Positions 2,260 to 35,517 of a stretch of 35,517 nt of DNA are shown here, piece by piece (position 1 is the first letter of the stretch; each line of letters starts with the position of its first letter). The notes under the pieces were generated by a model. That model was not told the DNA's origin and did not search any database. It saw only the letters and a list, made by a program, of their open reading frames with translations. Source of the DNA: Chthoniobacterales bacterium (lineage in GTDB: Bacteria > Verrucomicrobiota > Verrucomicrobiia > Chthoniobacterales > UBA10450); the NCBI GenBank assembly GCA_013821455.1, contig JACDGS010000041.1, forward strand, positions 1-35,517, given 5' to 3'. The position numbers were made by a program, and so were the translations under genes.

Positions 2260-2268
2260 TCGTTAGGC
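2260..2268 (+). repeat. TCGTTAGGC motif copy forming the stop codon of the DUF4126 gene
   Basis: Exact 9-mer. Read on the minus strand as GCC-TAA-CGA, its TAA is the stop codon of the DUF4126 gene (complement of 2263-2265). It lies in the extended context TTTACTCGTTAGGCT (2255-2269), shared with intergenic copies at 28816-28830 and 34056-34070. Confidence 0.85.
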
Positions 2269-3303
2269 TACGCTTTCTGCCGGCACAGATGGTTGAGCCG
2301 CTGTGACGAGCCTGCCGTTGATGAAATCCACGATTCGCTGCACGCGCTCGCCCTGACCGCGCTCGAAAAGAAAAACCAACTCCCCTCCGCGCGCGCTGCC
2401 GCCATCGAGGATGAGATTTTCAGAAAGAAACTTCGGTTCGCGGGTCGCCGTGCAGCCTGCGAGCGGAATGGTATGCGCTCGCGCACGCCAGCCTCCGCGC
2501 GCGAGGAAGAACAACTTGTTCGCGTCTTCCTGCGTGGCCACGAGCAGGCCGGTCGTGTTCGCCGGAACGCCGCGCATCTTTTTGGTCAGGCACGGCACCG
2601 CCCAGGCGACGGTTTCGCCTAACAAGTTTTCGCGCTCAAACGCGGCGGCGTAGCGCGAGGGCAGATGCGCCGGGAGCGTAGAGCCGGCTTCGTGCTCGGC
2701 CGGGCCGTTCAGCTTTTTCCAGATGAGCCAGAGTTTGACCCGGACCGCTCGAAAAATCTTCGGCGCGAGGTAAAGAATGATCGACAGGATCAGAACGAAA
2801 ACCGCGAGCGCCCAGAGCGGGTTGTAATGGATGAGCGCGAGCCCGCCGACAACAGCAGCGTCTTCGAGCAAGCTGAGTCCAATGTTGGAAAATGGCTCGG
2901 GCGAAGTGTTCGCGACGAGGCGAGTCGAAGCCTTCGCCGAATGCGTGACCAGACTCGCGCTCCCCGCGGCGAGGGCGACGACAGCATCGAATGCCGGCGT
3001 GGTTTGCCCGAGCGCGCGGATGGCCAGAAGCGCACCGCCAATTGGCCGAATAATCGTATGCACCGTGTCCCAGGCCGAATCGACCCACGGAATTTTATCC
3101 GCAAAAAACTCCAGCACATAGAGCGCGCCGGAAATCCAAAGCACACGAGAATCGGCCAGGATCGCGAGCGATTGGTACTCGGGCCCGAGGACGATCCAGT
3201 GCTGATTAATCGCCAACCCGGTGACAAAGACCGTCAGATAAAGATTGACGCCGGCGAGACACGCGAGACCGAGCGCGACGCCGAGGAGCTTCAGCTGATC
3301 CAC
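2263..3303 (-). CDS. DUF4126 family integral membrane protein
   Basis: A 346-residue protein. The N-terminal 190 residues match the DUF4126 pattern: LACLAGVNLYLTVFVTGLA, ALYVLEFFADKIPWVDSAWD, then a HTIIRPIGGALLAI helix, a small-residue-rich helix around VVALAAGSASLVTHSAKAS and another membrane helix WALAVFVLILSIILYLAPK. The rest (about 200-346) is soluble, with LPAHLPSRYAAAFERENLLGE and a LVFLFERGQGERVQRIVDFI segment. I do not recognise that extension as a named domain. Function is unknown for the family; it is predicted to sit in the cytoplasmic membrane. The gene is divergent from serS, and its stop codon lies inside a TCGTTAGGC motif. Confidence 0.85.
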   Translation of the reverse strand: MDQLKLLGVALGLACLAGVNLYLTVFVTGLAINQHWIVLGPEYQSLAILADSRVLWISGALYVLEFFADKIPWVDSAWDTVHTIIRPIGGALLAIRALGQTTPAFDAVVALAAGSASLVTHSAKASTRLVANTSPEPFSNIGLSLLEDAAVVGGLALIHYNPLWALAVFVLILSIILYLAPKIFRAVRVKLWLIWKKLNGPAEHEAGSTLPAHLPSRYAAAFERENLLGETVAWAVPCLTKKMRGVPANTTGLLVATQEDANKLFFLARGGWRARAHTIPLAGCTATREPKFLSENLILDGGSARGGELVFLFERGQGERVQRIVDFINGRLVTAAQPSVPAESVA

Positions 3304-3384
3304 ACCGAAATTATGCGGGCGCGGGCGGCGAAGTCACGCGCTCTTTTTAGCGCCAGGCGCCGCTTTTCTCCACGAAAAAATCTT

Positions 3385-3402
3385 GTTAATCCGGTTAATC
3401 CT
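3385..3402 (+). repeat. Two tandem 9-bp units GTTAATCCG/GTTAATCCT
   Basis: Two near-identical 9-bp units lie in the 114-bp divergent gap between the DUF4126 gene and serS, just upstream of the serS start. The role is unknown. They could be a remnant of an intergenic repeat or a binding site for a regulator of either gene. Confidence 0.4.
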
Positions 3403-3417
3403 GTCTTTTTCCTGCGC

Positions 3418-4710
3418 ATGCTCGACATCCGGCTCGTCCGCGAACAACCCGACTTTGTGAAGAGCCGACTGGCCACGCGCGGCGGCGACGAGCAGTTGAA
3501 AATCGACGAAGTCCTGGCCGTCGATACCGAGCGCCGGAAACTCGAAACCGCGCTCCAGCAATTCAACGCGGATCGCAAACGGCTAAGCAAAGAAATCGGC
3601 GGCGCGCGCAGTCGTAACGAGAACTCGGCGGAAGTGGAGGAACAGGTGCGCCGGATCGGAGATGGAATTGCCGAACTCGTTAGGCAAACAGCCGTCGCGG
3701 AAGAGCGGCAGCGCGATTTGCTCCTGAACATTCCGAACCTTCCGCACGCCGGCGCACCGGTGGGAAAGACGGCGAAGGATAACCCGGTCGTGCGCACGTG
3801 GGGCGAGAAGCCGTCGTTTGCGGGACCGATCCTCGACCACGTCGCCCTCGGCGCAAAGCTGCAGCTCTTCGACGCCGAACGTGCCACCAAACTTAGTGGC
3901 AGCGGCTTCATTTGTTTTACTGGCGCGGGTGCGCGGCTGGAGCGCGCTTTGATTCAGTTCATGCTCGATCTGCACACGCGCGAGCATGGTTACCTCGAGG
4001 TCAGTCCTCCTTTTCTCGTTAGGCGAGATTGCATGATCGGCACGACACAGTTGCCGAAATTTGAAGAAGACATGTACGGCTTCGAGGGAGGCGCGATGTT
4101 TCTCGCTCCAACAGCAGAAGTGCCCCTAACAAATCTTCATCGCGAAGAAATCCTGCCCGCGTCGGAGTTGCCGAAAAAGTATGTCGCTTACACGCCTTGT
4201 TTCCGCCGCGAAGCCGGCTCCGCGGGACGCGAAACGCGCGGCATTATTCGCGTCCACCACTTCGATAAAGTGGAGCTGGTTAAGATCACGGCGCCGGAAA
4301 CTTCCTATGCCGAACACGACGCTCTCACGGCCGACGCGGAGCGAGTCTTACAGTCGTTAGGCTTGCATTATCGCGTGATCGAACTCTGCACCGGCGACGT
4401 CGGTTTCGGGTCGGCTAAGACTTATGATTTGGAGGTTTGGTCTCCGGGACAAAATGCTTATCTGGAGGTTTCGAGTTGTTCGAACTTTGAAGATTTCCAG
4501 GCGCGTCGAATGAACCTGCGTTTCAAAGACGTCGAAGGAAAAAATCGCTTTCCGCACACCTTGAACGGTTCGGGCACGGCGTTGCCACGGCTCTTCGCGG
4601 CACTCGTGGAGACCTATCAACAGCCGGATGGATCGGTCGTAATTCCGGAAATGTTGCAGCCTTACTTCGCCGCCGATCGCATCTTGCCCTTCAAGTCATC
4701 TCCCAAGTAA
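3418..4710 (+). CDS. serS: Seryl-tRNA synthetase
   Basis: Class II aminoacyl-tRNA synthetase charging tRNA-Ser, 430 residues, the usual length. The start is ATG at 3418 because the family begins MLDIRLVREQPDFVKSRLA. The same frame stays open upstream to 2665, but that part is antisense to the DUF4126 gene. Residues about 30-110 form the tRNA-binding antiparallel coiled coil, charged and ending in LLLNIPNLPHAGAPVG. The catalytic core shows TAEVPLTNLHREEIL, motif 2 (CFRREAGSAGRETRGIIRVH) and motif 3 (GSGTALPRLFAALVETYQ). It contains three TCGTTAGGC copies at 3677, 4016 and 4354, encoding V-R, V-R and S-L-G. It is followed by a large palindromic repeat that may end transcription. Confidence 0.97.
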   Translation: MLDIRLVREQPDFVKSRLATRGGDEQLKIDEVLAVDTERRKLETALQQFNADRKRLSKEIGGARSRNENSAEVEEQVRRIGDGIAELVRQTAVAEERQRDLLLNIPNLPHAGAPVGKTAKDNPVVRTWGEKPSFAGPILDHVALGAKLQLFDAERATKLSGSGFICFTGAGARLERALIQFMLDLHTREHGYLEVSPPFLVRRDCMIGTTQLPKFEEDMYGFEGGAMFLAPTAEVPLTNLHREEILPASELPKKYVAYTPCFRREAGSAGRETRGIIRVHHFDKVELVKITAPETSYAEHDALTADAERVLQSLGLHYRVIELCTGDVGFGSAKTYDLEVWSPGQNAYLEVSSCSNFEDFQARRMNLRFKDVEGKNRFPHTLNGSGTALPRLFAALVETYQQPDGSVVIPEMLQPYFAADRILPFKSSPK

Positions 4711-4937: not shown

Positions 4938-4946
4938 GCCTAACGA
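4938..4946 (-). repeat. TCGTTAGGC motif copy touching the ruvC start codon
   Basis: GCCTAACGA on the plus strand. Its final A is the A of the ruvC ATG (4946-4948). One of several intergenic copies placed exactly at a gene boundary. Confidence 0.8.
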
Positions 4947-5452
4947 TGCGCGTGCTCGCGATCGACGCTTCTCTGCGCAGCTCCGGTGTCGCCATCATCG
5001 AAACGAACGGCGCCGGGAAATTTCGCGCGCTCCATTTCGGCGTCATCCAGAATGCGAGCTCGCTTCGCATGTCGTCGTGTCTTGTCGCCATTCACGACCG
5101 GCTCGCGGAATTGATTCATGCGCACGAGCCCGATTGCTGCGCCCTCGAAGCGGTCATTTATGTGCAGAGTTACAAGACGGCGATCACGCTCGGCGCGGCG
5201 CGCGGCTCGGCCATCATGACGGCGGCAGCGTGCGGGCTGCCGATTTTCGAATACGCGCCGCGGCGCATCAAGCAGGCGACCGTGGGCAACGGCTCCGCAG
5301 ATAAAACGCAGGTTGCTTTCATGGTCCGCGCGCTTCTTGGCCTAACGACAACGCCCGGCGCGGACGCGGCCGACGCGCTCGCCATTGGGCTCACGCATTT
5401 GCGCGCCCAGGAGGGAGCGCGTCTTGGCCTGCCGGGTCAGGCGCAAATATGA
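4946..5452 (+). CDS. ruvC: Holliday junction resolvase RuvC
   Basis: 168 residues, normal for RuvC, which resolves Holliday junctions with RuvAB in recombinational repair. The ATG at 4946 is chosen because the family starts MRVLAID; the upstream in-frame extension from 4856 has no family match. The four acidic metal ligands are visible: D7 (VLAID), E68 (CALEAV), D140 and D143 (GADAADALA). The LEAVIYVQSYKTAITLGAARG stretch and YAPRRIKQATVGNGSADKTQV are typical. The first codon shares its A with a TCGTTAGGC motif, and another copy at 5340 encodes G-L-T. The stop overlaps the lipB start by 4 nt (ATGA), so the two are translationally coupled. Confidence 0.96.
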   Translation: MRVLAIDASLRSSGVAIIETNGAGKFRALHFGVIQNASSLRMSSCLVAIHDRLAELIHAHEPDCCALEAVIYVQSYKTAITLGAARGSAIMTAAACGLPIFEYAPRRIKQATVGNGSADKTQVAFMVRALLGLTTTPGADAADALAIGLTHLRAQEGARLGLPGQAQI

Positions 5453-6120
5453 TCTCGCCGCTGTCGTTGGAGACGCTTTGGTTAGGCCGGGTCGATTTTG
5501 CGGAAGCGCTCGAGCGCCAGGAAACATTGGTGCAAGCGAAACGCGCCGACGCTGCAGCGCCCGATGAACTCTGGCTACTCGAGCACGAGCCCGTTTACAC
5601 GATCGGTCGCACGCTGGATCGGTCGAGCTTGCGCGGCACAGAACATTTGCCGCATCCGCTTTTTCCCATCAATCGCGGCGGTCAGGCGACCTGGCATGGG
5701 CCGGGACAACTGGTCGGTTATTTTTTGCTCGATCTCCGCCGTTACGGTCAGGATTTGCATCGTTACTTGCGCTGGATCGAAGCCCTGCTCATCGATGTCC
5801 TCGCGCGCTATGGAATTTCCGCTGCGACGCGCGCAGGACTCACCGGCGTTTGGGTGGAGGATCGCAAAATCGCCTCGATCGGCGTCGGCGTCCGGCAGTG
5901 GGTCACGATGCACGGCTTCGCTCTCAACGTCAGCGGAGACCTCACCGCCTTCGATCAGATCACACCCTGCGGCATCGATGGCGTCACCATGACTTCGATC
6001 GAAAAAGAGACCGGCAAATCGCATCGGCTCGAAGAAATTGCGGCGACCGTGGCGGAGAAAGCGCGCACAAATTTGCCCGCGATGCAGAAGCACTCGACAC
6101 CAACCGCCGCCGCGATTTAG
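5449..6120 (+). CDS. lipB: Octanoyl-[acyl carrier protein]:protein octanoyltransferase LipB
   Basis: 223 residues. LipB moves octanoate from acyl carrier protein to lipoyl domains, the first step of protein lipoylation in the cytoplasm. Visible signatures are LLEHEPVYTIGR, INRGGQATWHGPGQLVGYFLLDLRR (RGGxxTxHGPGQ), then GVWVEDRKIASIGVGVRQWVTMHGFALNV containing the conserved lysine (DRKIASIG), and ITPCGIDGVTMTS with the catalytic cysteine. It overlaps ruvC by ATGA and is followed after 6 nt by the HTH-hydrolase gene, so the four genes 4946-7817 probably form one transcript. Unusually for this part of the window it carries no exact TCGTTAGGC copy. Confidence 0.96.
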   Translation: MISPLSLETLWLGRVDFAEALERQETLVQAKRADAAAPDELWLLEHEPVYTIGRTLDRSSLRGTEHLPHPLFPINRGGQATWHGPGQLVGYFLLDLRRYGQDLHRYLRWIEALLIDVLARYGISAATRAGLTGVWVEDRKIASIGVGVRQWVTMHGFALNVSGDLTAFDQITPCGIDGVTMTSIEKETGKSHRLEEIAATVAEKARTNLPAMQKHSTPTAAAI

Positions 6121-6126
6121 TGGGGC

Positions 6127-6951
6127 ATGCGAATCCCTTTAGAAGATAATTTCACCGACATCATCGGCAAAGCGCAGCGCGGTCTGGAGATTTCCGACAG
6201 CCAACTCGCGCACAATTCAGGCGCGAGCGAGGAAGCGATCCGCGCGTTGCACGATGGAAAATTCGATCGCGCAACGCTCGACCGCATCGCTCCGGCGCTG
6301 CACCTCGATGCCGACGCGCTGGCCTCCTTCGCGCAGAACGAATGGTTGCCTAACGACAGCGCGGTCGAAGGTTTGGCCCAGTTCAACACGCCCTTTCATG
6401 ACATGGCGGTGAACGCCTACCTCGTCTGGGACCCGGCGAGCAAGGAAGCCGCGGTTTTCGATTCGGGCGCCGATTGCTCTGCGCTGCTCGAGAAGAGCAA
6501 AGCGGAAGGCCTAACGATCGAGTTGATTCTGCTCACGCATGCGCATCCCGATCACGTGGCCGATCTGGCGCGGCTGGTCGAAGCCACCGGCGCGCCGGTC
6601 TATCTCTCCGAGCTCGAGTCCGCGCCTAATGCCCGGCCGCTGGTTGAGGGCGAGAGCTTCGAGGTTGGCGGCCTGACGATCGAGGCGACCCTGACTTCAG
6701 GACATTCCCCCGGAGGCATGACTTTTTTCATCCGCGGTTTGGATCAACCGGTGGCGATCGTGGGCGACTCGCTTTTCGCCGGCTCGATGGGTGGCGGGAA
6801 CGTCTCCTACGCCGACGCGGTCCGGAATAATTGTGAGAAGATTCTCATTCTGCCTAACGACACCATTCTCTGTCCTGGCCACGGCCCGCTCACGACCGTG
6901 GCGGAGGAAAAGCAGCACAACCCTTTCTTCGCGGGCTCTTTCAAGTCATGA
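6127..6951 (+). CDS. Metallo-beta-lactamase fold hydrolase with N-terminal HTH domain
   Basis: 274 residues. About 1-65 look like an XRE-type helix-turn-helix: LEISDSQLAHNSGASEEAIRALHDGKFDRATLDRIAPAL. The remainder is a glyoxalase-II-like metallo-beta-lactamase domain with THAHPDH, GHSPGGMTFF, VGDSLFAGSMGG and CPGHGPLT, which supply the dinuclear metal ligands. The substrate is unknown; hydroxyacylglutathione or a related thioester is a reasonable guess. The start follows the lipB stop by 6 nt, with GTGGGG just upstream. The end overlaps the next gene by ATGA. Three TCGTTAGGC copies (6348, 6509, 6852) encode P-N-D, G-L-T and P-N-D. Fusion of a DNA-binding-like domain to a metabolic hydrolase is uncommon and might give self-regulation; this is inference. 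Confidence 0.88.
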   Translation: MRIPLEDNFTDIIGKAQRGLEISDSQLAHNSGASEEAIRALHDGKFDRATLDRIAPALHLDADALASFAQNEWLPNDSAVEGLAQFNTPFHDMAVNAYLVWDPASKEAAVFDSGADCSALLEKSKAEGLTIELILLTHAHPDHVADLARLVEATGAPVYLSELESAPNARPLVEGESFEVGGLTIEATLTSGHSPGGMTFFIRGLDQPVAIVGDSLFAGSMGGGNVSYADAVRNNCEKILILPNDTILCPGHGPLTTVAEEKQHNPFFAGSFKS

Positions 6952-7817
6952 ACCTCGGAGTAGTCGGAGTCGGGCGGATGGGCGCGAACATGGCGCGCCG
7001 GTTGCAGGAAAAAGGTTTCCATCTCACCGCGCTCTACGACGCGCAGCGTCCGGTTGCCACCAGCCTCGCGCAGGAACTGGGCAGCTTCGCGAGTCAGTCG
7101 TTAGGCGAAGTGACCGCGGCAGCGGATGTGGTCATCACCGTGGTCTCGGACGACGCGGCCATGCGCGAGATTTTTGCTGCGCCTAACGACAATCTTTTGC
7201 AAAACGCGAAGAGAAAACTTTTCATTAACTGCGCCACAATTTCGCCGGCGGTGCACGTCGAGGTCGAGCAGCTCGCGCGCGCCGCGGGCGCGCAAACGCT
7301 CGAGGCCTGCATGGCTTCGAGCATCACGCAGGCGCGCGAAGGTTCGCTCTATCTCATGTGCGGCGGCGAGAAATCCGCTTTCGAAATGGCCGAGCCGATT
7401 CTTCAGGCGCTCGGTTCGCAGATTCGCTATATCGGCAAGGCGGGCGAAGCGGCCAAGGTGAAAGCGCTCGTCAATATGGTGATGAATATCAACACGGCCG
7501 GGCTGGCCGAAGGGCTTGGCCTGGGCGAGGCGCTGGGGTTGGATCTCACGATGCTGCGCGAAGTTTTTAGCGAGACGGGCGCGGCTTCGCGCGTTTTGCA
7601 GACGGACGGTGAGGATATGCAAAACCACGATCACGCCTGTTTTTTCTCCGCCGCGCACGCGGCCAAAGACAGCGGCATCGCCCTGTCGTTAGGCGAGCAG
7701 GAAGGACTGGACCTGCCGCTCGCGCGCGCGACAAAAGCGCAATATGAAAAAATGATCGCGCAAGGCTTGGGAGACCTGGATAAATCCGGCATCGCGCAGC
7801 TCACGTTTCGTTCGTAA
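6948..7817 (+). CDS. NAD(P)-dependent beta-hydroxyacid dehydrogenase (3-hydroxyisobutyrate/6PGDH family)
   Basis: 289 residues. The N-terminal Rossmann fold begins GVVGVGRMGANMARRL. The catalytic lysine region is IGKAGEAAKVKALVNMVMNIN, matching GxxGxGxxxKxxxN, and the C-terminal all-helical domain includes HAAKDSGIALSLGEQEGLDLPL. The usual substrate loop DAPVSGG is replaced by EACMASSITQAREGSLYLMCGG, so the substrate may differ from 3-hydroxyisobutyrate or tartronate semialdehyde. It is coupled to the preceding hydrolase by a 4-nt overlap, which suggests consecutive steps on a small acid or thioester. Three TCGTTAGGC copies (7098, 7181, 7686) encode S-L-G, P-N-D and S-L-G. Confidence 0.9.
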   Translation: MNLGVVGVGRMGANMARRLQEKGFHLTALYDAQRPVATSLAQELGSFASQSLGEVTAAADVVITVVSDDAAMREIFAAPNDNLLQNAKRKLFINCATISPAVHVEVEQLARAAGAQTLEACMASSITQAREGSLYLMCGGEKSAFEMAEPILQALGSQIRYIGKAGEAAKVKALVNMVMNINTAGLAEGLGLGEALGLDLTMLREVFSETGAASRVLQTDGEDMQNHDHACFFSAAHAAKDSGIALSLGEQEGLDLPLARATKAQYEKMIAQGLGDLDKSGIAQLTFRS

Positions 7818-7831
7818 CACAGCCCGTGTTA
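7815..7831. terminator. Small hairpin spanning both convergent stop codons
   Basis: TAACAC-AGCCC-GTGTTA gives a perfect 6-bp stem with a 5-nt loop. It contains the plus-strand stop TAA (7815-7817) and the minus-strand stop TAA (7829-7831). The stem is short and has no T-run, so a role as a bidirectional terminator is only a suggestion. Confidence 0.35.
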
Positions 7832-9178
7832 CATCTGCGAGCGAAAGGGCAGCGCGATCCATTCGGTCGTGCGTTCCCAGAGCGAGCGACTCTTGAATTG
7901 TTGCAGCGTGTATTCCTTCGACTGCGCGAGGTCCTTTTCGAAAATCGCTTCCATCTTTCCGCCAAATCCTTCGTCGTAAATTGCGAGGTCGAGCTCTTCG
8001 TTTATCTCCGCGGAACGCGCGTCGAAGTTCGACGAGCCGATGAGTGAAAAGCGGCCGTCGCTCACCATCGACTTCGTGTGAATCATCGTCGGCTGATATT
8101 CGTAAATTTTCACGCCGCCTTCGAGCATGCGGCCATAGGCGGCGCGCCCCGCGCTTTTCGTTAGGGGTTGATCGTTGTTTACCCCCGGAAGAATCAGGCG
8201 CACATCGACATGACGCTGCACTGCCCTAACGAGAAGCTCGACCTGGTCGTCGGTCGGCGTGCAGTAGGCGTTCGTGATCCAAATGCGGCGCTCCGCCGCG
8301 GCGAACGCCACCGCCTCGGCCAGTGGCATCGGCGCCTGCGAGAAAGAGTGCGACGCGATCGTTTGCGCGCGCAGATTTCCCGCCGCGGGATGTGCAGGGA
8401 ATTGATCCGCGCCGCTCAGCGTTTCGCCAAAAGTTTTGATCCAATGCGCTTCGAAAGCATTCTGCAGCTCGGCGACGAGCGGTCCCTCGACGCGCGCCTG
8501 GATGTCGCGCCAATGTTTCGGATCCTGCGCGTGCCCCGACCATTCCTCGGCGAATCCGATCGCGCCGGTGAAGCCAACTTTCCCATCGACGACCATGACG
8601 CGCCGATGCGAACGGCGATTCGTGCGATCGACTCGCCAGGAGTGTAGTGGATGGTAGTAGCTGAATTTGCAGCCCGCTTGCTGGAGCATTTTCACGTCGG
8701 AATTATCGAGCTTCCAACTAGAGCCGATGCCATCGAGGAGGACGCGCACCTGCACCCCGGCGCGGGCGCGCGCGCAAAGTGCGTCGCGAAAAGCGCGGCC
8801 GATTTCATCGGAGTAAAAAATGTAGGCTTCGAAATTGATCGTCTTCCGCGCGCCATTGATCGCGGCGAGCATGGCGGGGAAATACTCGTCGCCGTTCTGG
8901 AGGAGATCGATCTTATTTCCGCCTAACGGAACCGGATCCGCGAGCGCGAGGGCCGAGCCGAGAAATTCCGGATCGCTCACGCTGAAGGTGTGTTCGAGAT
9001 GATATTCGAGGACGTGCCGGCGAATGAAGAAGACGCAAAAGACCGCGACGAGGCCAAGGACGGCGAGAGTCAGTCCGAGCGCTTCTTCGAGCTCGATCTT
9101 CCACCATTTGGTGTTGTGTTTCTGCGCGCGGCGACCAGGCATAGGAGGAGGTTGGGGGCGAAGTGCGGCGCGCGTCAA
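7829..9178 (-). CDS. cls: Cardiolipin synthase-like phospholipase D family protein
   Basis: 449 residues. An N-terminal soluble stretch is followed by one membrane helix (about 33-52, LGLTLAVLGLVAVFCVFFI), then two PLD domains. The first catalytic motif reads H-R-R-V-M-V-V-D, with Arg in place of the usual Lys of HxKxxxxD. The second is canonical H-T-K-S-M-V-S-D followed by GSSNFDARS. ISFEAYIFYSDE-like text (NFEAYIFYSDEIG) and LLDGIGSSW are typical of bacterial cardiolipin synthases, which condense phosphatidylglycerol at the inner membrane. It ends 12 nt from the convergent dehydrogenase gene. Motif copies at 8158 and 8225 encode L-T and V-R. An internal Met at residue 13 (MPGRR) is a possible alternative start. 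Confidence 0.9.
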   Translation of the reverse strand: MTRAALRPQPPPMPGRRAQKHNTKWWKIELEEALGLTLAVLGLVAVFCVFFIRRHVLEYHLEHTFSVSDPEFLGSALALADPVPLGGNKIDLLQNGDEYFPAMLAAINGARKTINFEAYIFYSDEIGRAFRDALCARARAGVQVRVLLDGIGSSWKLDNSDVKMLQQAGCKFSYYHPLHSWRVDRTNRRSHRRVMVVDGKVGFTGAIGFAEEWSGHAQDPKHWRDIQARVEGPLVAELQNAFEAHWIKTFGETLSGADQFPAHPAAGNLRAQTIASHSFSQAPMPLAEAVAFAAAERRIWITNAYCTPTDDQVELLVRAVQRHVDVRLILPGVNNDQPLTKSAGRAAYGRMLEGGVKIYEYQPTMIHTKSMVSDGRFSLIGSSNFDARSAEINEELDLAIYDEGFGGKMEAIFEKDLAQSKEYTLQQFKSRSLWERTTEWIALPFRSQM

Positions 9179-9209
9179 TGGAAGTCAGGCTTCCATCACG
9201 TCGGACGCC

Positions 9210-9343
9210 GTCATCCCGAGCGGAGCGCAGCGTAGCCGAGGGATCCCGTGGAAAAACCCGAAGCTCCGAAGCAGTGGCAACGAAATCTTCAACGAAACTC
9301 CACGGGATCCCTCGACTGCGCCTTCGGCTCCGCTCGGGATGAC
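9210..9343. repeat. REP-like inverted repeat, copy B
   Basis: Outer arms GTCATCCCGAGCGGAGCG and CGCTCGGGATGAC. Inner arms GAGGGATCCCGTGGA and TCCACGGGATCCCTC pair well. It shares its subfamily with copy C at 12410-12586. It lies upstream of ppk1 in the gap behind the divergent cls gene. Confidence 0.8.
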
Positions 9344-9352
9344 GGCGCGACG

Positions 9353-9430
9353 TTTGCGGGTGCGGACGCGCATTTGCGCGAACGGGGCATTTGCGCGGAC
9401 GGAGGCGCGTTTGCGCGTCCGGAGGCTTCT
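9353..9430 (+). repeat. Imperfect tandem units centred on TTTGCGSG
   Basis: TTTGCG recurs at 9353, 9373, 9390 and 9410, with spacings of 20, 17 and 20 bp, each followed by a CGGACG/CGAACG/CGTCCG-like tail. The repeats lie just upstream of ppk1 (start 9473). They could be protein binding sites for ppk1 control or a decayed repeat; no other support is seen. Confidence 0.4.
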
Positions 9431-9472
9431 GGTTAGTTAAAATCTTCGCCGTTCTCCGACCCGCTTTTCGTT

Positions 9473-11701
9473 ATGCCGTTCAGCAATCCTTCGCCCGTTT
9501 CCCTCACGCCGGATAACGTCGTTGCCATGCCCGCGCCTAACGACGAAAAGGCGCCGCCGAATTTTTCCGATCACGCGAATTTCATTAACCGCGAGCTGAG
9601 CTGGATCGAGTTCAATCGCCGGGTCCTGGAAGAAGCGGAGGATTCCAGCCAGCCGCTGCTCGAGCGGGTGAAATTCCTCGGCATTGTCAGCTCGAATCTC
9701 GACGAGTTTTTCGAGATTCGTGTCGCCGGCATCAAGCAACAGATCGCGAGCGAGACGAGCGACGTCGGCCCGGACGGGATGAGCCCGACGGACACTTTTA
9801 ACGCCATCCAACGCGGCGTGCACGAGATGGTGAAAACGCAGTACGCGCTTTGGAACGACGAGCTGGTGCCGTTGCTGAAAGAGAACAACATCCGCATCCG
9901 CCAGAGCGCCGATTTGAATGCGAAGCGCGCCGCCTGGGCGCAGCGTTATTTTCAGCAGGAAGTTTTCCCGATGCTCACGCCGCTGGCGGTGGACGCGAGT
10001 CATCCTTTCCCGCAACTGGCGAATAAGAGCCACAATTTACTCGTTAGGGCGCGGGCCCGGGAAGGCGGCGATCCGATGCACGCGATCGTGCAGGTGCCGC
10101 GCGCGGTCTCGCGCCTCATCCTCATGCCGCGTGGGGAAAAGGGCGGCGACGAGAACTGGAATTATCTTTATCTCGCGTCGCTCATGAAGCATCACATCGC
10201 GGATCTTTTTCCCGGCCTAACGATCGATGGCGCGCACGCTTTTCGCGTCACGCGCAACAGCGATCTCTACGTGGACGATGAGGAAGCCGACAACCTCCTG
10301 CGCAGCATCGAGCAGGAGCTTCGCCGCTCCAGCCGCGGCAACGCCGTCCGTCTCGAAGTGGAAGCCGATTGCCCTAACGACTTCTCCGATTTGCTCCTCG
10401 ATTTTTTCCAACTGACCGAGGCCGATCTCTACAAACTCGAGGGCCCGCTTTCCATGACGCACCTCGCGCCGCTGGTCGGCAACGATGCCTTCGCGAAATT
10501 GAAGGACCGCGTTTTCCAGCCGGCGCGCGATCCGTCGCTGCCGCCGCACGCCGACATTTTCGAGGCCATGCGCAAGCAGGACATTCTGCTCCATCATCCC
10601 TACGAAAGTTACGATCCCGTGGTCGAGCTGATCGAAAGCGCGGCGACCGATCCGCAGGTCCTCGCGCTCAAGATCACGCTCTATCGCACGAGCGGAGATT
10701 CGCCGATTGTCGAGGCGCTGATCAACGCCGCCGATGCCGGCAAACAAGTGACGGCGCTGGTCGAATTACGCGCACGTTTTGATGAGGCCGCGAACATTCA
10801 ATGGGCGCGCCGGCTTGAGGAAGCGGGCGCGCATGTCGTCTATGGCGTGGTCGGTTTAAAGACGCATTGCAAAGCGCTCCTCATCGTTAGGCGCGACACT
10901 GATCGGCTGCGGCAGTATGTCCATCTCGCCACCGGAAATTACCACCCGAGAACGGCGCGTATTTACACCGACTTCAGTCTCTTCACGACCGCGCCCGAGC
11001 TGACCGAAGAAGTGGCGATGGTCTTTAACACGCTCACTGGCTTGGCTGGTTATCCGGGCTTAAAAAAACTGCTCGTTGCGCCCTTCGATCTGCACACGCG
11101 CCTCATTCAAATGATCGAAGACGAGCGCGATTTCGCGGCGGCGGGCAAGCCCGGACGGATCATCGCGAAGTTGAATTCGCTGGTCGATCAGGAGGTCATC
11201 GAAAAACTTTATGAAGCGTCCTGCGCGGGTGTGCGGATCGATCTTATCGTTAGGGGAATTTGCTCGCTCCGACCGAACATTCCCAGCCTGAGCGAAAATA
11301 TCCGCGTCATCAGCATCGTCGGACGTTTCCTCGAGCACAGCCGGATTTATTATTTCGGCAACGACGGCGACGCGCGCCTTTATCTCGCGAGCGCGGATTG
11401 GATGCCGCGAAATTTTTATCGTCGGGTCGAAATCGCTTTCCCGATCGAAGCGCCGCCCTTGCGCGAAGAGATTATCAACGAGGTCCTGCCGCGGTTTCTC
11501 ACCGATCACGGCAAAGCGCGCGAGCTGCAGGCTGATGGCAGCTACGTGCGCTTGAAAGCGGCCGACGGCGAACAGGCCTCGCAGGCGCAATTGCAATTCC
11601 GGGAGCACTCGCGGCGACAGGCGAAAAAGCTGGCGGAGAAACAGCGCAAAGGCAAAATGCGTTTGTCGCCAATCAAGCTTCCACCGAAACAACGCGCGTG
11701 A
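9473..11701 (+). CDS. ppk1: Polyphosphate kinase 1
   Basis: 742 residues, slightly longer than E. coli PPK because of a low-complexity N-terminus of about 35 residues. PPK1 reversibly polymerises the gamma phosphate of ATP into polyphosphate. Signatures are FINRELSWIEFNRRVLEEA, VKFLGIVSSNLDEFFEIRVAG, LLHHPYESYDPVVELI, ALKITLYRTSGDSPIVEAL, GLKTHCKALLIVRR (carrying the probable phospho-histidine), HLATGNYHPRTARIYTDFSLFT and DWMPRNFYRRVEIAFPI. The ATG at 9473 is the first in-frame start. It overlaps the next gene, a ROK-type glucokinase, by GTGA. Six motif copies lie inside (9535, 10041, 10215, 10373, 10884, 11247) in three different reading phases, the most of any gene in the window. Confidence 0.96.
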   Translation: MPFSNPSPVSLTPDNVVAMPAPNDEKAPPNFSDHANFINRELSWIEFNRRVLEEAEDSSQPLLERVKFLGIVSSNLDEFFEIRVAGIKQQIASETSDVGPDGMSPTDTFNAIQRGVHEMVKTQYALWNDELVPLLKENNIRIRQSADLNAKRAAWAQRYFQQEVFPMLTPLAVDASHPFPQLANKSHNLLVRARAREGGDPMHAIVQVPRAVSRLILMPRGEKGGDENWNYLYLASLMKHHIADLFPGLTIDGAHAFRVTRNSDLYVDDEEADNLLRSIEQELRRSSRGNAVRLEVEADCPNDFSDLLLDFFQLTEADLYKLEGPLSMTHLAPLVGNDAFAKLKDRVFQPARDPSLPPHADIFEAMRKQDILLHHPYESYDPVVELIESAATDPQVLALKITLYRTSGDSPIVEALINAADAGKQVTALVELRARFDEAANIQWARRLEEAGAHVVYGVVGLKTHCKALLIVRRDTDRLRQYVHLATGNYHPRTARIYTDFSLFTTAPELTEEVAMVFNTLTGLAGYPGLKKLLVAPFDLHTRLIQMIEDERDFAAAGKPGRIIAKLNSLVDQEVIEKLYEASCAGVRIDLIVRGICSLRPNIPSLSENIRVISIVGRFLEHSRIYYFGNDGDARLYLASADWMPRNFYRRVEIAFPIEAPPLREEIINEVLPRFLTDHGKARELQADGSYVRLKAADGEQASQAQLQFREHSRRQAKKLAEKQRKGKMRLSPIKLPPKQRA

Positions 11702-12390: not shown

Positions 12391-12409
12391 GTGCGCACCA
12401 CTCCGCCTC

Positions 12410-12586: not shown

Positions 12587-12616
12587 GAATCGGACGTCTT
12601 GCGGAGTCACCGGCTT

Positions 12617-12625: not shown

Positions 12626-12627
12626 AA

Positions 12628-13422: not shown

Positions 13423-13465
13423 CTATGAGCATGTTGTCTCATGGAAAAGGCGGCGACTCCTACAC

Positions 13466-25669: not shown

Positions 25670-25678
25670 TCGTTAGGC
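25670..25678 (+). repeat. TCGTTAGGC motif copy at the permease start
   Basis: On the minus strand it reads GCCTAACGA-CT-ATG, so it ends 2 nt before the start codon of the ADOP permease and occupies the place where a Shine-Dalgarno site would be. Confidence 0.8.
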
Positions 25679-26070: not shown

Positions 26071-27564
26071 ATGCTAATTTTCTCTTTATGGCGGAAGGCC
26101 TTCGCGACTATCTTTTTTGCCGTGGTCGGAGTGACTTTCGCTCAAGCGGGAAGTGTGACCGCAACATGGGACGCGAATCACGAGCCGGACATTGCGGGGT
26201 ATAACCTTTATTACGGCACGACCAGTGGAGTCTATCCGCAAACCTTAAACGTAAGCGGCGTTACGACGACCGCTGTTATTAACGACCTTACGGAGGGAAG
26301 TCAGTACTTCTTTGTCGTTACCGCCTATAACGCAGGCGGGTGGGAAAGCACTCCATCCTTGGAGCAGAGCTTCACCATCCCGGCGCCGACCCCGACGCCA
26401 ACGCCTTCACCTACCGCAACACCGACGCCGACCGAAACTCCTACGCCAACGGCCACACCTACTCCAACCGCGACGCCGACACCTACCCCTTCTGCCACAC
26501 CAACTCCTACAGAGACACCCACACCAACACCCACACCAACACCCACACCAACACCAACACCAACACCAACACCAACACCAACACCAACACCAACACCGAC
26601 CCCGACACTTACTCCGACCCCGACTTCTACTCCCACTGTTACACCACCGCCTACACCTACCCCGAAACCTACTAGGACTCCCTCACCGACTCCTACAGTC
26701 AAACCTTCCCCAACGCCGCGGCCCTCGCCTACTCCAAGGCACACGCCCAGTCCTACCCCTTCTCCGCGTGCCCTTCTGGATGACTCACCGCCGATGACCT
26801 TTCTCAACGTCTCTACCCGCGTCCAAGTGCAGGATGGCGATAACGTTCTGATCGGCGGCTTCATCGTCACCGGCGACAAAGCCAAGAACGTTGCCCTGCG
26901 CGCGATCGGTCCCTCCCTGGTCGCCGCTGGAATCCCTGACGCCTTGACCGATCCAGTGCTCGACCTCTATGACTCGACCGGCACTTTGATTCAGGAAAAC
27001 GACAACTGGACCAGTCTCCCGGCCGAAAGTGTGCCGGAAGGAGTCGCACCAAGCGATCCTCGTGAGTCTCTCATTGTTGCTACGCTAACACCCGGGAATT
27101 ACACCGCGGTTTTGCGGGCGGCCCGAGGTCCTGTAGGTGTAGGTCTCTTCGAACTTTACGATATCGATGCCGGGAATTCGCGAGTTAGTAACATCTCAAC
27201 CCGCGGCGTAGTGGAAGCAGGTGACGGCGCGATGATCGCCGGTTTCATCGTTGGTGGGACCGACGCGACCAAAATCATCGCCCGCGCCCTCGGTCCTTCC
27301 CTGACCGACAACGGCGTCGCCGGAGCCTTGGCCGATCCCATTCTCGAGCTGCGCGATGCAACCGGTTCGCTTATCTTTTCTAACGACAACTGGCGCTCCG
27401 ACCAGGAGCAGGAAATCATAGCGTCGACCATCCCGCCGACAAGTAACAAAGAAGCAGCCATTGTCGCCACCCTTCCACCGGGAGTTTACACTGCCACCGT
27501 GCGCGGGACTGGCGAGACGACCGGCGTCGCTCTGGTAGAAGTCTATAACTTGGGAGCGCCTTAG
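26071..27564 (+). CDS. Secreted Fn3 - Thr/Pro linker - double surface-repeat protein
   Basis: 497 residues. A signal peptide (1-26, ending TFAQA) is followed by a fibronectin type III domain (27-103: [38 protein letters not shown]). A long Thr/Pro linker of about 125 residues comes next. Two copies of a roughly 125-residue module follow, each beginning [21 protein letters not shown] or [21 protein letters not shown] and containing [19 protein letters not shown] and a closing [10 protein letters not shown]. The module is frequent in secreted proteins of Verrucomicrobiota; its function is unknown, perhaps adhesive. The next gene is a paralogue without the linker. Two dyads precede the start. 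The linker contains a hexanucleotide microsatellite. No TCGTTAGGC copy lies inside, but one lies 2 nt after the stop. Confidence 0.88.
26517..26598 (+). repeat. In-frame ACACCA/ACACCC hexanucleotide microsatellite
   Basis: About thirteen hexamer units of ACACCA/ACACCC type lie in the Thr/Pro linker of the Fn3 protein, flanked by degenerate versions. Unit length 6 keeps the frame, so slippage would change linker length without breaking the gene. Confidence 0.85.
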
Positions 27565-27581
27565 ACTCGTTAGGCACGAGT
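27565..27581 (+). terminator. Hairpin containing a TCGTTAGGC motif after the first Fn3 gene
   Basis: ACTCGT-TAGGC-ACGAGT forms a perfect 6-bp stem with a 5-nt loop, starting right after the TAG stop (27562-27564). The motif (27567-27575) covers the left arm and the loop. There is no T-run, so termination is uncertain. Confidence 0.45.
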
Positions 27582-28809: not shown

Positions 28810-28830
28810 CAGTCCTTTACTCGTTAGGCT
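28810..28830 (+). repeat. Extended 21-bp copy of the TCGTTAGGC repeat
   Basis: The 21 bp here are identical to 34050-34070: C followed by AGTCCTTTAC and TCGTTAGGCT. Both lie just after a TAG stop codon. The match shows that some intergenic copies share more than the 9-bp core. Confidence 0.9.
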
Positions 28831-31534: not shown

Positions 31535-33019
31535 CTACCGCAGTCTGCTGCCGATCTTTAGTTGAATCGGGCTAAGATCCAATTCGTCGATCTCGCCATT
31601 TACATTTACGTCTTCACGGAAGTTACTGCTATCGGTGTGTTCTCCAAGGTCTTCTACGGCTTGATCCAAGTCCGCCTCGTCCACGAAGCCGTCGGCATTT
31701 ACGTCGCCGAGTAACAGTCCCATGGTGACGGATGTCGTTAGGCTATTACCTTGATCGTCTGTGGTCCCTTGCAGAGTTAGCGTTATATAATGGCTATTAC
31801 ATGTCGTCCCGAAGTAAGTCGCCAGCACTTGCTTAGAGTTATCTGGGTTGATGATAGCTCCGGTCGTACGCCCGCAGGAAACGCTGAAGTCTCCCGCGGC
31901 CGTGACTGGATGGTTGAAGGTAAAGAGGAGCGTGAAAGGTCGTCTATTAGCGACGCGGCATTCGATCCCCGGAGGACCGCTAAGTGGCAGTGCTATCTCG
32001 AAAGGTCCTTTACGCGAAGCGGCCGAGACCAAGGCGAAGCTATCCGCTTCCCCACCGTTCGTTGTGCGCAGAATAGTGCCGGATCGACCTACTGCTACTC
32101 CCGTGAGTGCGTCGCTCTGGAAGTGCACAGCAAAGAGATCCGACGAAATGCCACTTGTCTGAGGGTTAAAGGTAACTCCCTGGTCGCTTGACTTAAGAAT
32201 CGCCCCACCAAGACCTACTACCCAGCCCGCTTCCGGTTTTGGGAAAGCTATCCCTTCCAAGGCTTGCGGGAAGATGATGGAACTCCAATCCACCGCGCCA
32301 TTAATCGTTCGTGCGATGGCGCCAGTGAAGTCGAACAAAGCAGCCGAAGTAATCCCAGTCGCCGAGTCGAAGAAATAGACATCGTCGCAGGTTCCTTCAT
32401 TCCCGTTGAAGTAGAAGTCATGGAAGGTCCAGTTAACTCCGCCATTCACGGTCACTCCGACGAAGCCTTGGAAGATGGAGTTCTGTCCGGCAACAAAACC
32501 CAGAGTAGGACTTAGCATCTGCGCGCCGAAAAAGCCGCCGCCAAAGAAGCCTTTTTGCGAGACGTGCCAGCTAGCTCCTGAGTCAGTCGAGTAAAGGATG
32601 TCCTGGGAAGTGCCGCCGCAAATCCCGTTCGCGCCGCTAAAGGAAACGGAGCGCAGACTATCTCGCACGCCACTGGTGACACTTAGCCAGGTCGTGCCAC
32701 CGTCGGTTGTGCGCAGGATTAGACCATTGTCACCGACAGTGACTGCCTCGGAGTCGTTGAAGACATATAAACCGTGCAAGGTTTGGGTCGTGCCGGAAGT
32801 GAGTGTCATCCAGGTCGCGCCGCTATCCCCGGTCTTGAGAATGGTTCCAGCGTCTCCTGCGGCATAGCCAACTCCGGAGTCGAGAAGCTGGACGCCGTTT
32901 AAGTTATTCGTCGTCCCGGAACTAACGGGCGCCCACTGCGCTCTTAGTCCCGCGACGGAGAGGAAGGAAACGAACAGCGTGGCGAGAAATTTTATCTTCG
33001 TCATCGGAGAATTGTTCAT
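31535..33019 (-). CDS. Secreted Ycf48/BNR-repeat beta-propeller protein with dockerin-like end
   Basis: 494 residues. A signal peptide (about 1-27, FLATLFVSFLSVAGLRA) is followed by repeated propeller blades with the pattern VGYAAGDAGTILKTGDSGATWM, AVTVGDNGLILRTTDGGTTWL and GVAVGRSGTILRTTNGG, typical of the Ycf48/BNR family. A beta-sandwich region (about 335-435) follows. The C-terminus has two EF-hand-like repeats, LLGDVNADGFVDEADL and DVNVNGEIDELDL, as in type I dockerins that bind calcium. It is predicted to be extracellular. A partner cohesin is not in the window. The sole motif copy (31735) encodes S-L-T. ATG at 33004 (MTKIKF) is an alternative start. Confidence 0.85.
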   Translation of the reverse strand: MNNSPMTKIKFLATLFVSFLSVAGLRAQWAPVSSGTTNNLNGVQLLDSGVGYAAGDAGTILKTGDSGATWMTLTSGTTQTLHGLYVFNDSEAVTVGDNGLILRTTDGGTTWLSVTSGVRDSLRSVSFSGANGICGGTSQDILYSTDSGASWHVSQKGFFGGGFFGAQMLSPTLGFVAGQNSIFQGFVGVTVNGGVNWTFHDFYFNGNEGTCDDVYFFDSATGITSAALFDFTGAIARTINGAVDWSSIIFPQALEGIAFPKPEAGWVVGLGGAILKSSDQGVTFNPQTSGISSDLFAVHFQSDALTGVAVGRSGTILRTTNGGEADSFALVSAASRKGPFEIALPLSGPPGIECRVANRRPFTLLFTFNHPVTAAGDFSVSCGRTTGAIINPDNSKQVLATYFGTTCNSHYITLTLQGTTDDQGNSLTTSVTMGLLLGDVNADGFVDEADLDQAVEDLGEHTDSSNFREDVNVNGEIDELDLSPIQLKIGSRLR

Positions 33020-33356: not shown

Positions 33357-34049
33357 ATGCCCATGAGCACTCGAATTTTCCTCATCCGCCACGGCGTGAC
33401 TGTTCTCACAGCGGAGGATCGCTTTGCCGGCTCGACTGACGTCGAGCTTTCCGATGAAGGCCGGGAACAGGCGCGGCGTCTCGGCGAGAGGTTGCGCGCG
33501 GAAAAAGTGGCGGCGGTTTATGCCTCGCCTCTCGGACGAACGGTCGAGACCGCAACCCTGATCGCAAAACCGCACGGCTTGGAAGTGCAAAAGCGTGACG
33601 GCCTGCGCGAAATCGCGCATGGGCGTTGGGAGCAAATGACGCGGCGCGAAGTGGACGAGAAATTCCCCGAAGAAGCCGCCGCGTGGGAAGAGGACCCTTA
33701 CACCTTCGCGCCGGTTGGCGGAGAGAGCGGCCTCGCGGTGACGGCGCGTTCGCTGCCTGTCCTGCTCGAGATTGTGCGCGCGCATCCGGACAAGGCGGCG
33801 ATTATTGTGTCGCACAAAGCGACGATTCGGTTGTTGCTCAGCTCGCTGCTCGGTTTCGATCCGCGCCGTTATCGCGACAACCTCGATCAAAGCCCGGCGG
33901 CGTTGAACATCGTGGACTTCAAAGACGCCGCGCACGCGCGGCTCACGCTCTTTAATTCCACCTCGCACTACAGCACTCCGGCAACGCAGGTGCCCTCGAT
34001 GCCAACCGCGCGGCTTTCCAAATGGTGGGACGACTCAGGCCCGGAGTAG
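33357..34049 (+). CDS. Histidine phosphatase family protein (phosphoglycerate mutase-like)
   Basis: 230 residues. It has the catalytic LIRHGVT motif, RFAGSTDVELSDEGREQARRLGERL, VYASPLGRTVETATLIA, LREIAHGRWEQMTRREV (the second acid residue region) and the second histidine in AIIVSHKATIRLLLSSLLG. Members include alpha-ribazole phosphatase and broad-specificity sugar phosphatases; cofactor-dependent mutase is less likely given the size and motifs. The start is ATG 33357, or ATG 33363 two codons later. The C-terminal 35 residues (NSTSHYSTPATQVPSMPTARLSKWWDD) are an unmatched tail. No motif copy lies inside; one extended copy follows immediately after the stop. Confidence 0.9.
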   Translation: MPMSTRIFLIRHGVTVLTAEDRFAGSTDVELSDEGREQARRLGERLRAEKVAAVYASPLGRTVETATLIAKPHGLEVQKRDGLREIAHGRWEQMTRREVDEKFPEEAAAWEEDPYTFAPVGGESGLAVTARSLPVLLEIVRAHPDKAAIIVSHKATIRLLLSSLLGFDPRRYRDNLDQSPAALNIVDFKDAAHARLTLFNSTSHYSTPATQVPSMPTARLSKWWDDSGPE

Positions 34050-34070
34050 CAGTCCTTTACTCGTTAGGCT
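34050..34070 (+). repeat. Extended 21-bp copy of the TCGTTAGGC repeat at the permease start
   Basis: Identical to 28810-28830. It fills the whole 21-nt gap between the phosphatase stop (34047-34049) and the ATG of the APC permease (34071). Its TTAGG lies 3-7 nt before the start and could act as a weak ribosome binding site. Confidence 0.9.
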
Positions 34071-35372
34071 ATGAAGGAAGAGAGCAAGCTCGCGCGTCAG
34101 CTTGGGCTCTTCGGCACGACTATGGCGGTGATGGGCGGCATCATCGGCGCGGGAATTTTCATTAATCCCTACATTGTCGCGCAGCGGGTGCATTCTGCTC
34201 CGCTGATCCTCGGGGCCTGGATCGCGGGCGGACTGATCGCGCTCGCCGGCGGGTTTATTTATGCGGAGCTGGCGGCGCGGCTGCCGGTGGTCGGCGGACA
34301 ATATGCGTATCTGCGGGACGCGCTGCATCCATCGGTGGCGTTTGTTTACGGCTGGGTGCTATTGCTCGTCATCCAAACCGGCGGCATGGCGGCGGTGGCG
34401 GTGACTTTCGCGCGCTACTTCGTCGAACTCACGGGCTGGCCGATCCACGACTCGTTAGGCGCGATCGCGGCGTTGGCCTTACTAACGGGAATTAACTGTC
34501 TCGGAGTCCGCGCCGGCAGCAGGTTGCAATCCGCCATGACGCTGACCGCGATCGCGGCTGTCGGTATGCTTGAAATTGTTAGCTTCGCGCGCGGCGGCGC
34601 ATCGCAGGCGAGCTGGCATCCGCTCCTCGACCAACCGCCTTCTTTTCCACTCCTGCTCGCATTCGGCGCGGCCATGACTCCGGTGCTTTTCGCCTATGGC
34701 GGCTGGCAGACGTCGAGCTTTCTCGGTGGCGAAGTGCGCAATCCCGAGAAGACTCTCCCGCGCGGTTTGATCCTCGGCGTGCTGGGCGTGATCGCGGTCT
34801 ATGTGTCGGTTAATTTCGTTTACCTGCGCTCGTTAGGCGCAGGAGGGCTGGCGGCCACGAGCACGCCGGCGTCTTCGGTCATGCGCGGTTTGTTAGGCGC
34901 GCGCGGCGGACAATTAATCGCCGCGGGAATTGCCTTTTCCGCTTTTGGATTTCTCGCGCAATCAATGCTAACCGCGCCGCGCGTTTATTTCGCGATGGCG
35001 GAGGACGGCGTTTTTTTTAAAGCCGTCGCGCGGGTGCATCCACGCACACGCGCGCCGATGGTCGCGATCGCGTTGCAAGGCGTGTGGGCGATCGTGATCG
35101 CGCTTAGCGGGACTTATGGGCAGGTGGTGAATTATGTGGTGGCGATGGACTGTCTGTTCATCGGCCTGACGGCGACCTGCCTTTTCGTTTTGCGGCGGCG
35201 AAGCACACTGCCGGCAAACTTTCGCGTCCCCGGTCACCCCTGGACGACGCTGCTTTTTATCGCGGCGGAATGGTTGGTGGTGGCGAGCACGTTCGCGCAT
35301 GATCCGGTGCGCTCGGGGATTGGTCTGCTGATCGCGCTCGCGGGTGTGCCGATCTATTTTCTCTGGCGATGA
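34071..35372 (+). CDS. APC-superfamily amino acid permease
   Basis: 433 residues with about 12 membrane helices. The APC N-terminus LGLFGTTMAVMGGIIGAGIFINP contains the substrate-binding unwound GxIIGxGIF. Others are FIYAELAARLPVVGGQYAYLRDAL, APVLFAYGGWQTSSFLGGEVRNPEKTLPRG-like text in helix 6 and the following loop, and PRVYFAMAEDGVFFKAVARVHPRTRAPMVAI. It resembles LAT/YfnA-type transporters that import or exchange amino acids across the inner membrane. It starts next to the extended motif copy and overlaps the next gene by ATGA, so the two are coupled. Motif copies at 34452 and 34830 encode S-L-G, and a one-mismatch copy lies at 34890. Confidence 0.93.
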   Translation: MKEESKLARQLGLFGTTMAVMGGIIGAGIFINPYIVAQRVHSAPLILGAWIAGGLIALAGGFIYAELAARLPVVGGQYAYLRDALHPSVAFVYGWVLLLVIQTGGMAAVAVTFARYFVELTGWPIHDSLGAIAALALLTGINCLGVRAGSRLQSAMTLTAIAAVGMLEIVSFARGGASQASWHPLLDQPPSFPLLLAFGAAMTPVLFAYGGWQTSSFLGGEVRNPEKTLPRGLILGVLGVIAVYVSVNFVYLRSLGAGGLAATSTPASSVMRGLLGARGGQLIAAGIAFSAFGFLAQSMLTAPRVYFAMAEDGVFFKAVARVHPRTRAPMVAIALQGVWAIVIALSGTYGQVVNYVVAMDCLFIGLTATCLFVLRRRSTLPANFRVPGHPWTTLLFIAAEWLVVASTFAHDPVRSGIGLLIALAGVPIYFLWR

Positions 35373-35517
35373 ATTTGCCTAACGACACGAAACGGTCGCC
35401 CTACATGGAGTGGGCGAAAACTGGTTCGGTGGCGCGCTTCAATCTCGCGACCAGCGGCCTAACGACTGTAACAACGGCGGATTTTCCACTGCGCCTTGAG
35501 GACGTGGAGGTGAATGG
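35369..35517 (+). CDS. Start of a gene, possibly a PLP-dependent aminotransferase (cut off)
   Basis: ATG at 35369 overlaps the permease stop (ATGA). The visible 49 residues begin MNLPNDTKRSPYMEWAKTGS and VARFNLATSGLTTVTTADFP. The pattern YMEWAK...FNLATSGL is reminiscent of the N-terminus of class I/II aminotransferase-like proteins, but too little is present for certainty. Coupling to an amino-acid permease would fit amino-acid use. It already holds two motif copies (35377 P-N-D, 35457 L-T) within 90 bp. Confidence 0.5.
   Translation, partial: MNLPNDTKRSPYMEWAKTGSVARFNLATSGLTTVTTADFPLRLEDVEVN

Follow-up and report, generated by a model that had tools for sequence, protein, structure and literature searches.

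A nine-base word dispersed through genomes of a Chthoniobacterales family, a candidate DNA uptake sequence

The stretch of DNA examined here (the window) comprises 35,517 nucleotides of contig JACDGS010000041.1 of a Chthoniobacterales bacterium known only from metagenomes (assembly GCA_013821455.1; family UBA10450) and is crowded with copies of a 9-bp word, TCGTTAGGC. Neisseriaceae have DNA uptake sequences (DUS), and Pasteurellaceae have uptake signal sequences (USS). By analogy, we propose, with a probability of roughly 0.6, that TCGTTAGGC marks DNA as self for uptake during natural transformation and, with the same probability, that it is part of a new system that resembles uptake sequences and employs more than one word. 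The proposal rests on the genome-wide abundance of the word, its origin by substitution, its conservation above that of its flanks, and its indifference to strand and phase. It rests further on the lack of a GC-skew bias, the absence of the word from the sampled integron cassettes (outside attC) and one restriction-modification island, its restriction to one family, and the occurrence of other words in other lineages.

Abundance in the window and the genome

The window contains 44 exact copies of TCGTTAGGC, 25 on the plus strand and 19 on the minus strand, compared to a mean of 0.25 (largest, 2) in 100 dinucleotide shuffles of the window and 0.8 expected from its third-order Markov model. The original prediction, made from the letters of the window, had given about these counts (25 and 19) for the 9-mer, at positions that its list contains, and about 55 copies of an 8-bp core; we found 56 copies of the 8-mer TCGTTAGG, the earlier list omitting only a minus-strand copy at 1489. 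Nor is the enrichment confined to this contig or predicted by codon usage, the two outcomes that the prediction had named as fatal to it. The window is part of contig C71 of its own genome (G000; 4.30 Mb, 117 contigs), which holds 4605 copies of TCGTTAGGC (2299 and 2306 by strand) and 62 of the reversed word (29 and 33). In 346 kb of this genome (20 stretches plus the window, with genes called by a simple in-house script), 393 copies were found and 7.3 expected from a third-order Markov model, a 54-fold enrichment, and shuffling of synonymous codons in the called genes left 4.8 copies (maximum, 12 in 100 shuffles) versus the 250 observed. The over-representation first noticed is confirmed and was understated.

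The copies in the window are as follows (L numbers denote loci of related metagenome bins).

Exact copies of TCGTTAGGC
2260-2268, plus, copy; upstream flank ends ATTTAC
3677-3685, plus, copy
4016-4024, plus, copy
4354-4362, plus, copy
4938-4946, minus, copy
5340-5348, minus, copy
6348-6356, minus, copy
6509-6517, minus, copy
6852-6860, minus, copy
7098-7106, plus, copy
7181-7189, minus, copy
7686-7694, plus, copy
9535-9543, minus, copy within ppk; unchanged in L001, L002, L003 and L016
10215-10223, minus, copy within ppk; eight aligned relatives differ by 2-6 mismatches
10884-10892, plus, copy within ppk; unchanged in L001, L003, L004 and L016
12617-12625, plus, copy
12936-12944, minus, copy
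12971-12979, plus, copy
13205-13213, minus, copy; unchanged in L001, L002 and L003
13466-13474, plus, copy
14474-14482, minus, copy
14587-14595, minus, copy
14663-14671, minus, copy
14797-14805, plus, copy
15250-15258, plus, copy
17607-17615, plus, copy
18274-18282, minus, copy
18417-18425, plus, copy
19544-19552, plus, copy
19952-19960, plus, copy
22098-22106, minus, copy
23136-23144, plus, copy; next copy 10 bases on
23146-23154, plus, copy; 10 bases past 23136
23711-23719, minus, copy
24671-24679, minus, copy
25670-25678, plus, copy
27567-27575, plus, copy directly past the stop codon of the called gene at 26071-27564
28821-28829, plus, intergenic copy; extended flank GTCCTTTAC
31735-31743, plus, copy
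34061-34069, plus, copy directly ahead of the start codon of the gene at 34071; extended flank GTCCTTTAC
34452-34460, plus, copy
34830-34838, plus, copy
35377-35385, minus, copy
35457-35465, minus, copy

Copies of the core TCGTTAGG only
1489-1496, minus, core; ninth base T (missed in the earlier list)
8158-8165, plus, core
8225-8232, minus, core
10041-10048, plus, core
10373-10380, minus, core
11247-11254, plus, core
18837-18844, plus, core
19150-19157, minus, core
19777-19784, minus, core
19897-19904, minus, core
20403-20410, plus, core
21038-21045, plus, core

Words of the type GGTGTTGGTGTT form a further over-represented set in the window (1-35517), at 7 to 10 copies.

Placement and form of the word

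The 393 copies in the 346-kb sample comprise 250 in genes, 113 between genes and 30 at gene edges, intergenic bases making up 20.4% of the sample. Genic copies are distributed over the four stop-free phases as 65, 53, 68 and 64, with 118 in the sense orientation and 132 antisense to the gene. Spacing is Poisson-like (coefficient of variation, 1.03), and 191 of 374 neighbor pairs share a strand. Much of the use of some rare codons falls inside the 8-mer (AGG, 73/254 or 29%; CTA, 88/400; and TTA, 70/506, in sampled genes). Ten of the 15 most word-rich genes were scanned and encode alanyl-tRNA synthetase, a pyridoxal phosphate enzyme, an amidohydrolase, CinA, an amino-acid permease, a DUF2339 protein, a carboxyltransferase, CtaA, a Mur ligase, and one protein without a family.

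Forms with a single mismatch indicate that positions 3 to 6 (GTTA) are strict and that the ends (positions 1, 2, 8 and 9) are more tolerant. Intergenic copies have a weak upstream flank preference, of the TCCTTTAC or CTTATAC type (≤0.23 bits per position), as if the complete site were longer where it is free of protein constraint. A reading of the extended flank as a promoter −10 element was rejected because 12 of 41 such sites lie inside genes and the others occur in both orientations to their neighbors.

Conservation and origin of copies

When five loci from related bins (L001 to L004 and L016), in which background 9-mers are 11 to 19% identical, were aligned with the window, TCGTTAGGC was intact at 21 of 48 aligned sites versus 6.4 expected (P 3e-7). 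The remaining sites have one to six substitutions (26/48) or a gap (1/48). The word is more conserved than its flanks, as the original prediction had suggested checking in orthologous genes, and its copies arise by substitution in place, not as insertions. At 10215, L001 differs at six of nine bases while the 8-base flanks are identical, and the copy there alters a residue of polyphosphate kinase (alignment read by hand). Neisserial DUS are reported to show multi-base differences, to be more conserved than their flanks and to lie in the core genome (PMC2397512).

A selfish micro-repeat, one of the roles first suggested, is not supported, given the gap-free alignment of 47 of the 48 orthologous sites and the small number of copies (15 of 589 in an ∼553-kb sample) that lie in a longer exact repeat (21 bp). 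The same low fraction led us to reject a repetitive extragenic palindromic (REP) element or a repeat tied to a REP-associated tyrosine transposase (RAYT), as did the RAYT matches themselves, which number 0 to 14 per genome with no visible relation to the word (e.g., 1 in G001 and 13 in G007; judged by eye, without a statistic). A separate observation concerns a minus-strand gene of the window's genome (L211, 3005-5710; contig C13 of G000) encoding a RecG helicase that includes, in frame, a RAYT (HUH) domain (residues ∼389 to 530; NF047646, 5e-22). Among the matches listed, RAYT domains in open frames of ∼800 to 1000 residues, which may be RecG, were found in many other family members and in G051 of another family, and the fusion may be conserved.

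Depletion in acquired DNA

TCGTTAGGC is depleted in recently acquired DNA, namely, cassette arrays and one restriction-modification island. Cassette arrays spanning 21.5 kb (bounds set by us around attC matches) contain no copy outside attC, where 22.5 would be expected. Ten word-free gaps of >4.5 kb occur in a 513-kb sample of the genome, five of which are covered by four annotated regions. The longest is 13.4 kb (L095, 3928-17372) and holds the restriction-modification island; scanning 7 of its 12 open reading frames (ORFs) identified a C5-methylase with Vsr, a ResIII helicase, an aspartyl-protease/TPR protein and four ORFs without a family. A search of the genus (40 candidates scored per genome) gave only matches of ≤∼0.5 kb for its interior (∼5350-16250), and its ends matched three of the four other genus members over 0.9 to 3.1 kb at 68 to 89%; the first 1.4 kb of the gap therefore has homologues yet lacks the word. 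A second word-free stretch, of 7.4 kb (L204; three of five ORFs scanned), encodes an MmeI-type enzyme. Neisserial DUS are likewise reported to be absent from recently acquired genes (PMC2397512).

Distribution among relatives and other words

The nearest relatives of the window polyphosphate kinase (best 80 of 272 loci) are metagenome bins labelled Chthoniobacterales, Spartobacteria or Verrucomicrobia, and one is “Candidatus Udaeobacter”; the four closest loci (L001 to L004) carry TCGTTAGGC at 0.72 to 1.27 per kb. We searched 58 genomes of the order, 37 from the family (G000 to G036, own genome included) and 21 from other families. Every family member has the word, at 60 to 4605 copies (1410 to 4605 in the window's own genus, 2147 in G005, 1802 in G014, and 60 to 587 in the others), and the other families have 1 to 30 copies. 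The family minimum of 60, in G016 and G019, is not above the reversed-word control and is raised only relative to the outgroups. In a phylum-wide draw of 288 genomes, three of them family members, the maximum outside the family was 133 (G242), and five genomes had >20 (G239, G242, G243, G251 and G286). The words raised in 120 kb of G242 (GTTAGGC, TTGTTAGGC and TTGGTTAGG) are those of attC arrays, we infer.

Lineages differ in their words, and a single genome can have two. Other genera of the family have elevated numbers of TTGTCGATC, the highest being that of G014 (2985 copies); the reversed form of this word is too low to be a fair control because it contains CTAG, and outgroup genomes serve better. 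In 440 kb of G014, which belongs to a sister genus, TGTCGATCTT occurs 700 times versus 5.3 expected (1.6 per kb, ∼130-fold over the Markov model; L031, L119, L120 and L167 to L186), alongside 276 copies of TCGTTAGGC. Its counts per 5 kb are less clumped than random (variance/mean, 0.83) and correlate with those of TCGTTAGGC (rho 0.30, p 0.004). The two words are not halves of one site, as no spacing of ≤60 bases is repeated in ∼66 kb of G014, and TGTCGATCTT is not a form of the attC L' box, two attC sites of G014 being without it. CTCGTTAGC occurs 91 to 155 times in genus g4 versus 1 to 59 times in other genomes (reversed-word controls in g4, 55 to 74), and GTTCGACGTT is found mainly in G006 (122 copies), followed by G030 of the same genus (44). 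These words of other genera resemble dialects, not all of which are mutually related. Further repeated words were seen in passing: GTGAGGTCCTT and the GGTCATCCT/CTCAGGATG types accompany GTTCGACGTT in G006 (L101, L102 and L221 to L226), and TGAGTACG, a possible further word, is raised ∼7-fold in 140 kb of G019 (genus g4; L227 to L233).

Proposed uptake model

A putative DNA receptor on the cell surface, which may be a minor type IV pilin, would bind TCGTTAGGC, and fragments carrying the word would be taken up preferentially and recombined into the chromosome, competence presumably being active. Variants gaining the word by mutation would therefore be copied more frequently into other cells, so that the word would build up to ∼1 per kb in old DNA, not in newly acquired DNA. 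ComEC (PF03772) and DprA are encoded by 53 and 54 of the 58 genomes, respectively, own genome included. PilQ-like secretins occur in all 58, none above the curated cutoff; the secretin of the own genome has an additional match, below cutoff, to uptake porins of the HofQ type.

The density of the word (4605 copies in 4.30 Mb) fits the likening to DNA uptake sequences in the original prediction. The DUS of Neisseriaceae similarly occur in thousands of copies per genome (PMC3630211), on both strands and in coding and intergenic DNA, are conserved above their flanks, are absent from the acquired DNA examined, and comprise lineage-specific words (PMC3630211, PMC2397512). They differ in belonging to another phylum, in the unrelated sequence of the word, and in having a ComP-like receptor, the counterpart of which is putative for TCGTTAGGC, as is uptake. 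The USS of Pasteurellaceae also have a 9-bp core, a density of ∼1 per kb and a weak extended flank at free sites, as for TCGTTAGGC. HIP1 of cyanobacteria is another short, hugely abundant genome word of uncertain role, but it is palindromic, whereas TCGTTAGGC is not palindromic and does not occur in the foreign islands examined. The USS sequence, AAGTGCGGT or ACAAGCGGT (PMC3630211), is unrelated to TCGTTAGGC. Among the matches listed in a literature search (titles and starts of abstracts), neither TCGTTAGGC as a genome-wide motif nor uptake sequences in Verrucomicrobiota were reported, and the parts covered of two further papers contain nothing on TCGTTAGGC or such uptake words (PMC5343374, PMC5217627).

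Several observations weigh against an uptake function. First, ComEC, DprA and PilQ-like genes are also present in word-poor relatives; this machinery does not separate word-rich from word-poor genomes and therefore permits, but does not prove, uptake. The comparison of competence genes proposed in the original prediction found ComEC and DprA in the own genome and in relatives with few copies alike. Second, the two words of G014 are unrelated in sequence, unlike the related dialects of Neisseriaceae, and no strong own word emerged from 151 kb of G010, also of the family. Third, opposite-strand neighbors ≤60 bases apart are few (∼12 among 374 neighbor pairs), whereas close inverted pairs are common as DUS terminators. 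Fourth, depletion in gaps rests on annotation of half of the ten gaps of >4.5 kb, and those in L206 (8 of 10 ORFs scanned) and L199 (2 of 2) hold accessory genes that are not plainly mobile (glycoside hydrolase, acyltransferase, glyoxalase-like protein, LysR regulator, Kelch protein, NHL/Ig protein and unknowns). Fifth, the model does not account for why the word and the attC end, described below, are identical. Finally, we know of no uptake or transformation experiment for the family.

Alternative explanations

TCGTTAGGC could instead be the binding site of an abundant chromosomal protein (a nucleoid organizer or a repair or segregation factor), kept by selection on chromosome function. High conservation, genome-wide spread on both strands, and a 9-bp form with a strict GTTA center that looks like a protein site would all suit this explanation, and two words in one genome could reflect two such proteins. 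We nevertheless consider it rather unlikely. The word is absent from cassette arrays and the restriction island, which are also chromosomal; its spacing is Poisson-like; and it fills a large share of rare codons and changes a polyphosphate kinase residue at 10215. With GC skew as a proxy for replichore orientation, a first look at 16 contigs gave a weak strand bias (−0.55, p 0.028), but this was gone in the larger sample of 24 segments of G000 (Spearman −0.17, p 0.43), and 22 segments of G014 had none for either of its words (p 0.77 and 0.36). No pattern like that of the polar motifs Chi or FtsK-orienting polar sequences (KOPS) was seen, which weighs against a KOPS- or Chi-like form of the segregation role listed among the earlier candidates.

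An integron explanation was prompted by two observations, the shared attC end and a run of copies on one strand in L090. It holds that TCGTTAGGC derives from the R' ends of attC and that dispersed half-sites (attG-like genomic targets) are kept or spread by IntI. The order has true integrons, with arrays in G038, G055 and others and attC with R'', L'', L' and R' boxes; among sites chosen for containing CGTTAGG, many attC end in TCGTTAGGC and some in other CGTTAGGC forms. An integron integrase scores above cutoff in the own genome, 513 kb of which hold 28 attC at E <0.003 under a covariance model (R1; 19 training sequences, one from the own genome), a simple attC finder having proved too strict. 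The weak CYTWTAC-like flank upstream of intergenic copies also resembles some attC ends. Dispersed copies, however, are mostly inside ordinary genes and are not attC sites: the R''-L''-L'-R' hairpin sought with model R1 is lacking, only 9 of 536 copies in the 513-kb sample lie in attC, and the window has no attC at E <0.1 (best copy, E 0.16). At positions 7 and 8, G-to-A forms of the dispersed word are not in excess, although GTTAGAT, GTTAGGT and GTTAGAC are also among the attC ends of G000 and G014. An integrase above cutoff is found in only 27 of the 58 genomes, and G038 and similar outgroups have integrase and attC with few copies of TCGTTAGGC; attC alone therefore does not cause dispersal, and an integron origin is distinctly improbable.

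The run in L090 (G000, contig C10) consists of eight minus-strand copies with the flank TCCTTTAC or similar, lying between genes without the 9-mer; they adjoin true attC at 16078-18045 on the same strand, and two of the eight share an ∼130-bp repeat. Integron arrays of Chthoniobacterales with a conserved attC consensus are present in L187, L188, L189, L191, L198 and L205.

The statement in the original prediction that no motif of this sequence was described holds for a genome-wide word among the papers listed in the literature search, but the same nine letters form the 3' end of many attC. This identity is either a trace of shared origin or chance. Uptake word and attC R' end could even be one code, with a single receptor recognizing TCGTTAGGC, which we regard as quite unlikely. 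Cassettes would then be born with an uptake label and transformation would feed the integron; the same preference would have spread TCGTTAGGC through the core genome, and some lineages would have added or switched to unrelated words, e.g., TGTCGATCTT.

Copies originating by substitution would also be expected if sequence context biased mutation or repair (through a Vsr-like process, or gene conversion in the absence of uptake), but this is very improbable: nine positions are specified, enrichment over a third-order Markov model is 54-fold, the word is absent from cassettes and the island in the same cell, and orthologous sites with similar flanks show multi-base differences. A methylation or restriction target or other epigenetic mark, to which the short word and strict center might point, deserves hardly any weight, as restriction predicts avoidance of its target and not gain.

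Implications

To our knowledge, uptake sequences are known from two proteobacterial families only, a record from which neither the reason for sequence-specific transformation nor the way words arise and are replaced is clear. If TCGTTAGGC is an uptake word, the Verrucomicrobiota would provide a third, unrelated origin, with several words per family and two per genome, and the origin, switching and loss of uptake words would become testable by comparison. These Verrucomicrobiota are abundant in soil and mostly uncultured; an uptake function would suggest that they transform and prefer DNA of their own kind, and word counts would help to tell core from foreign DNA in metagenome bins.

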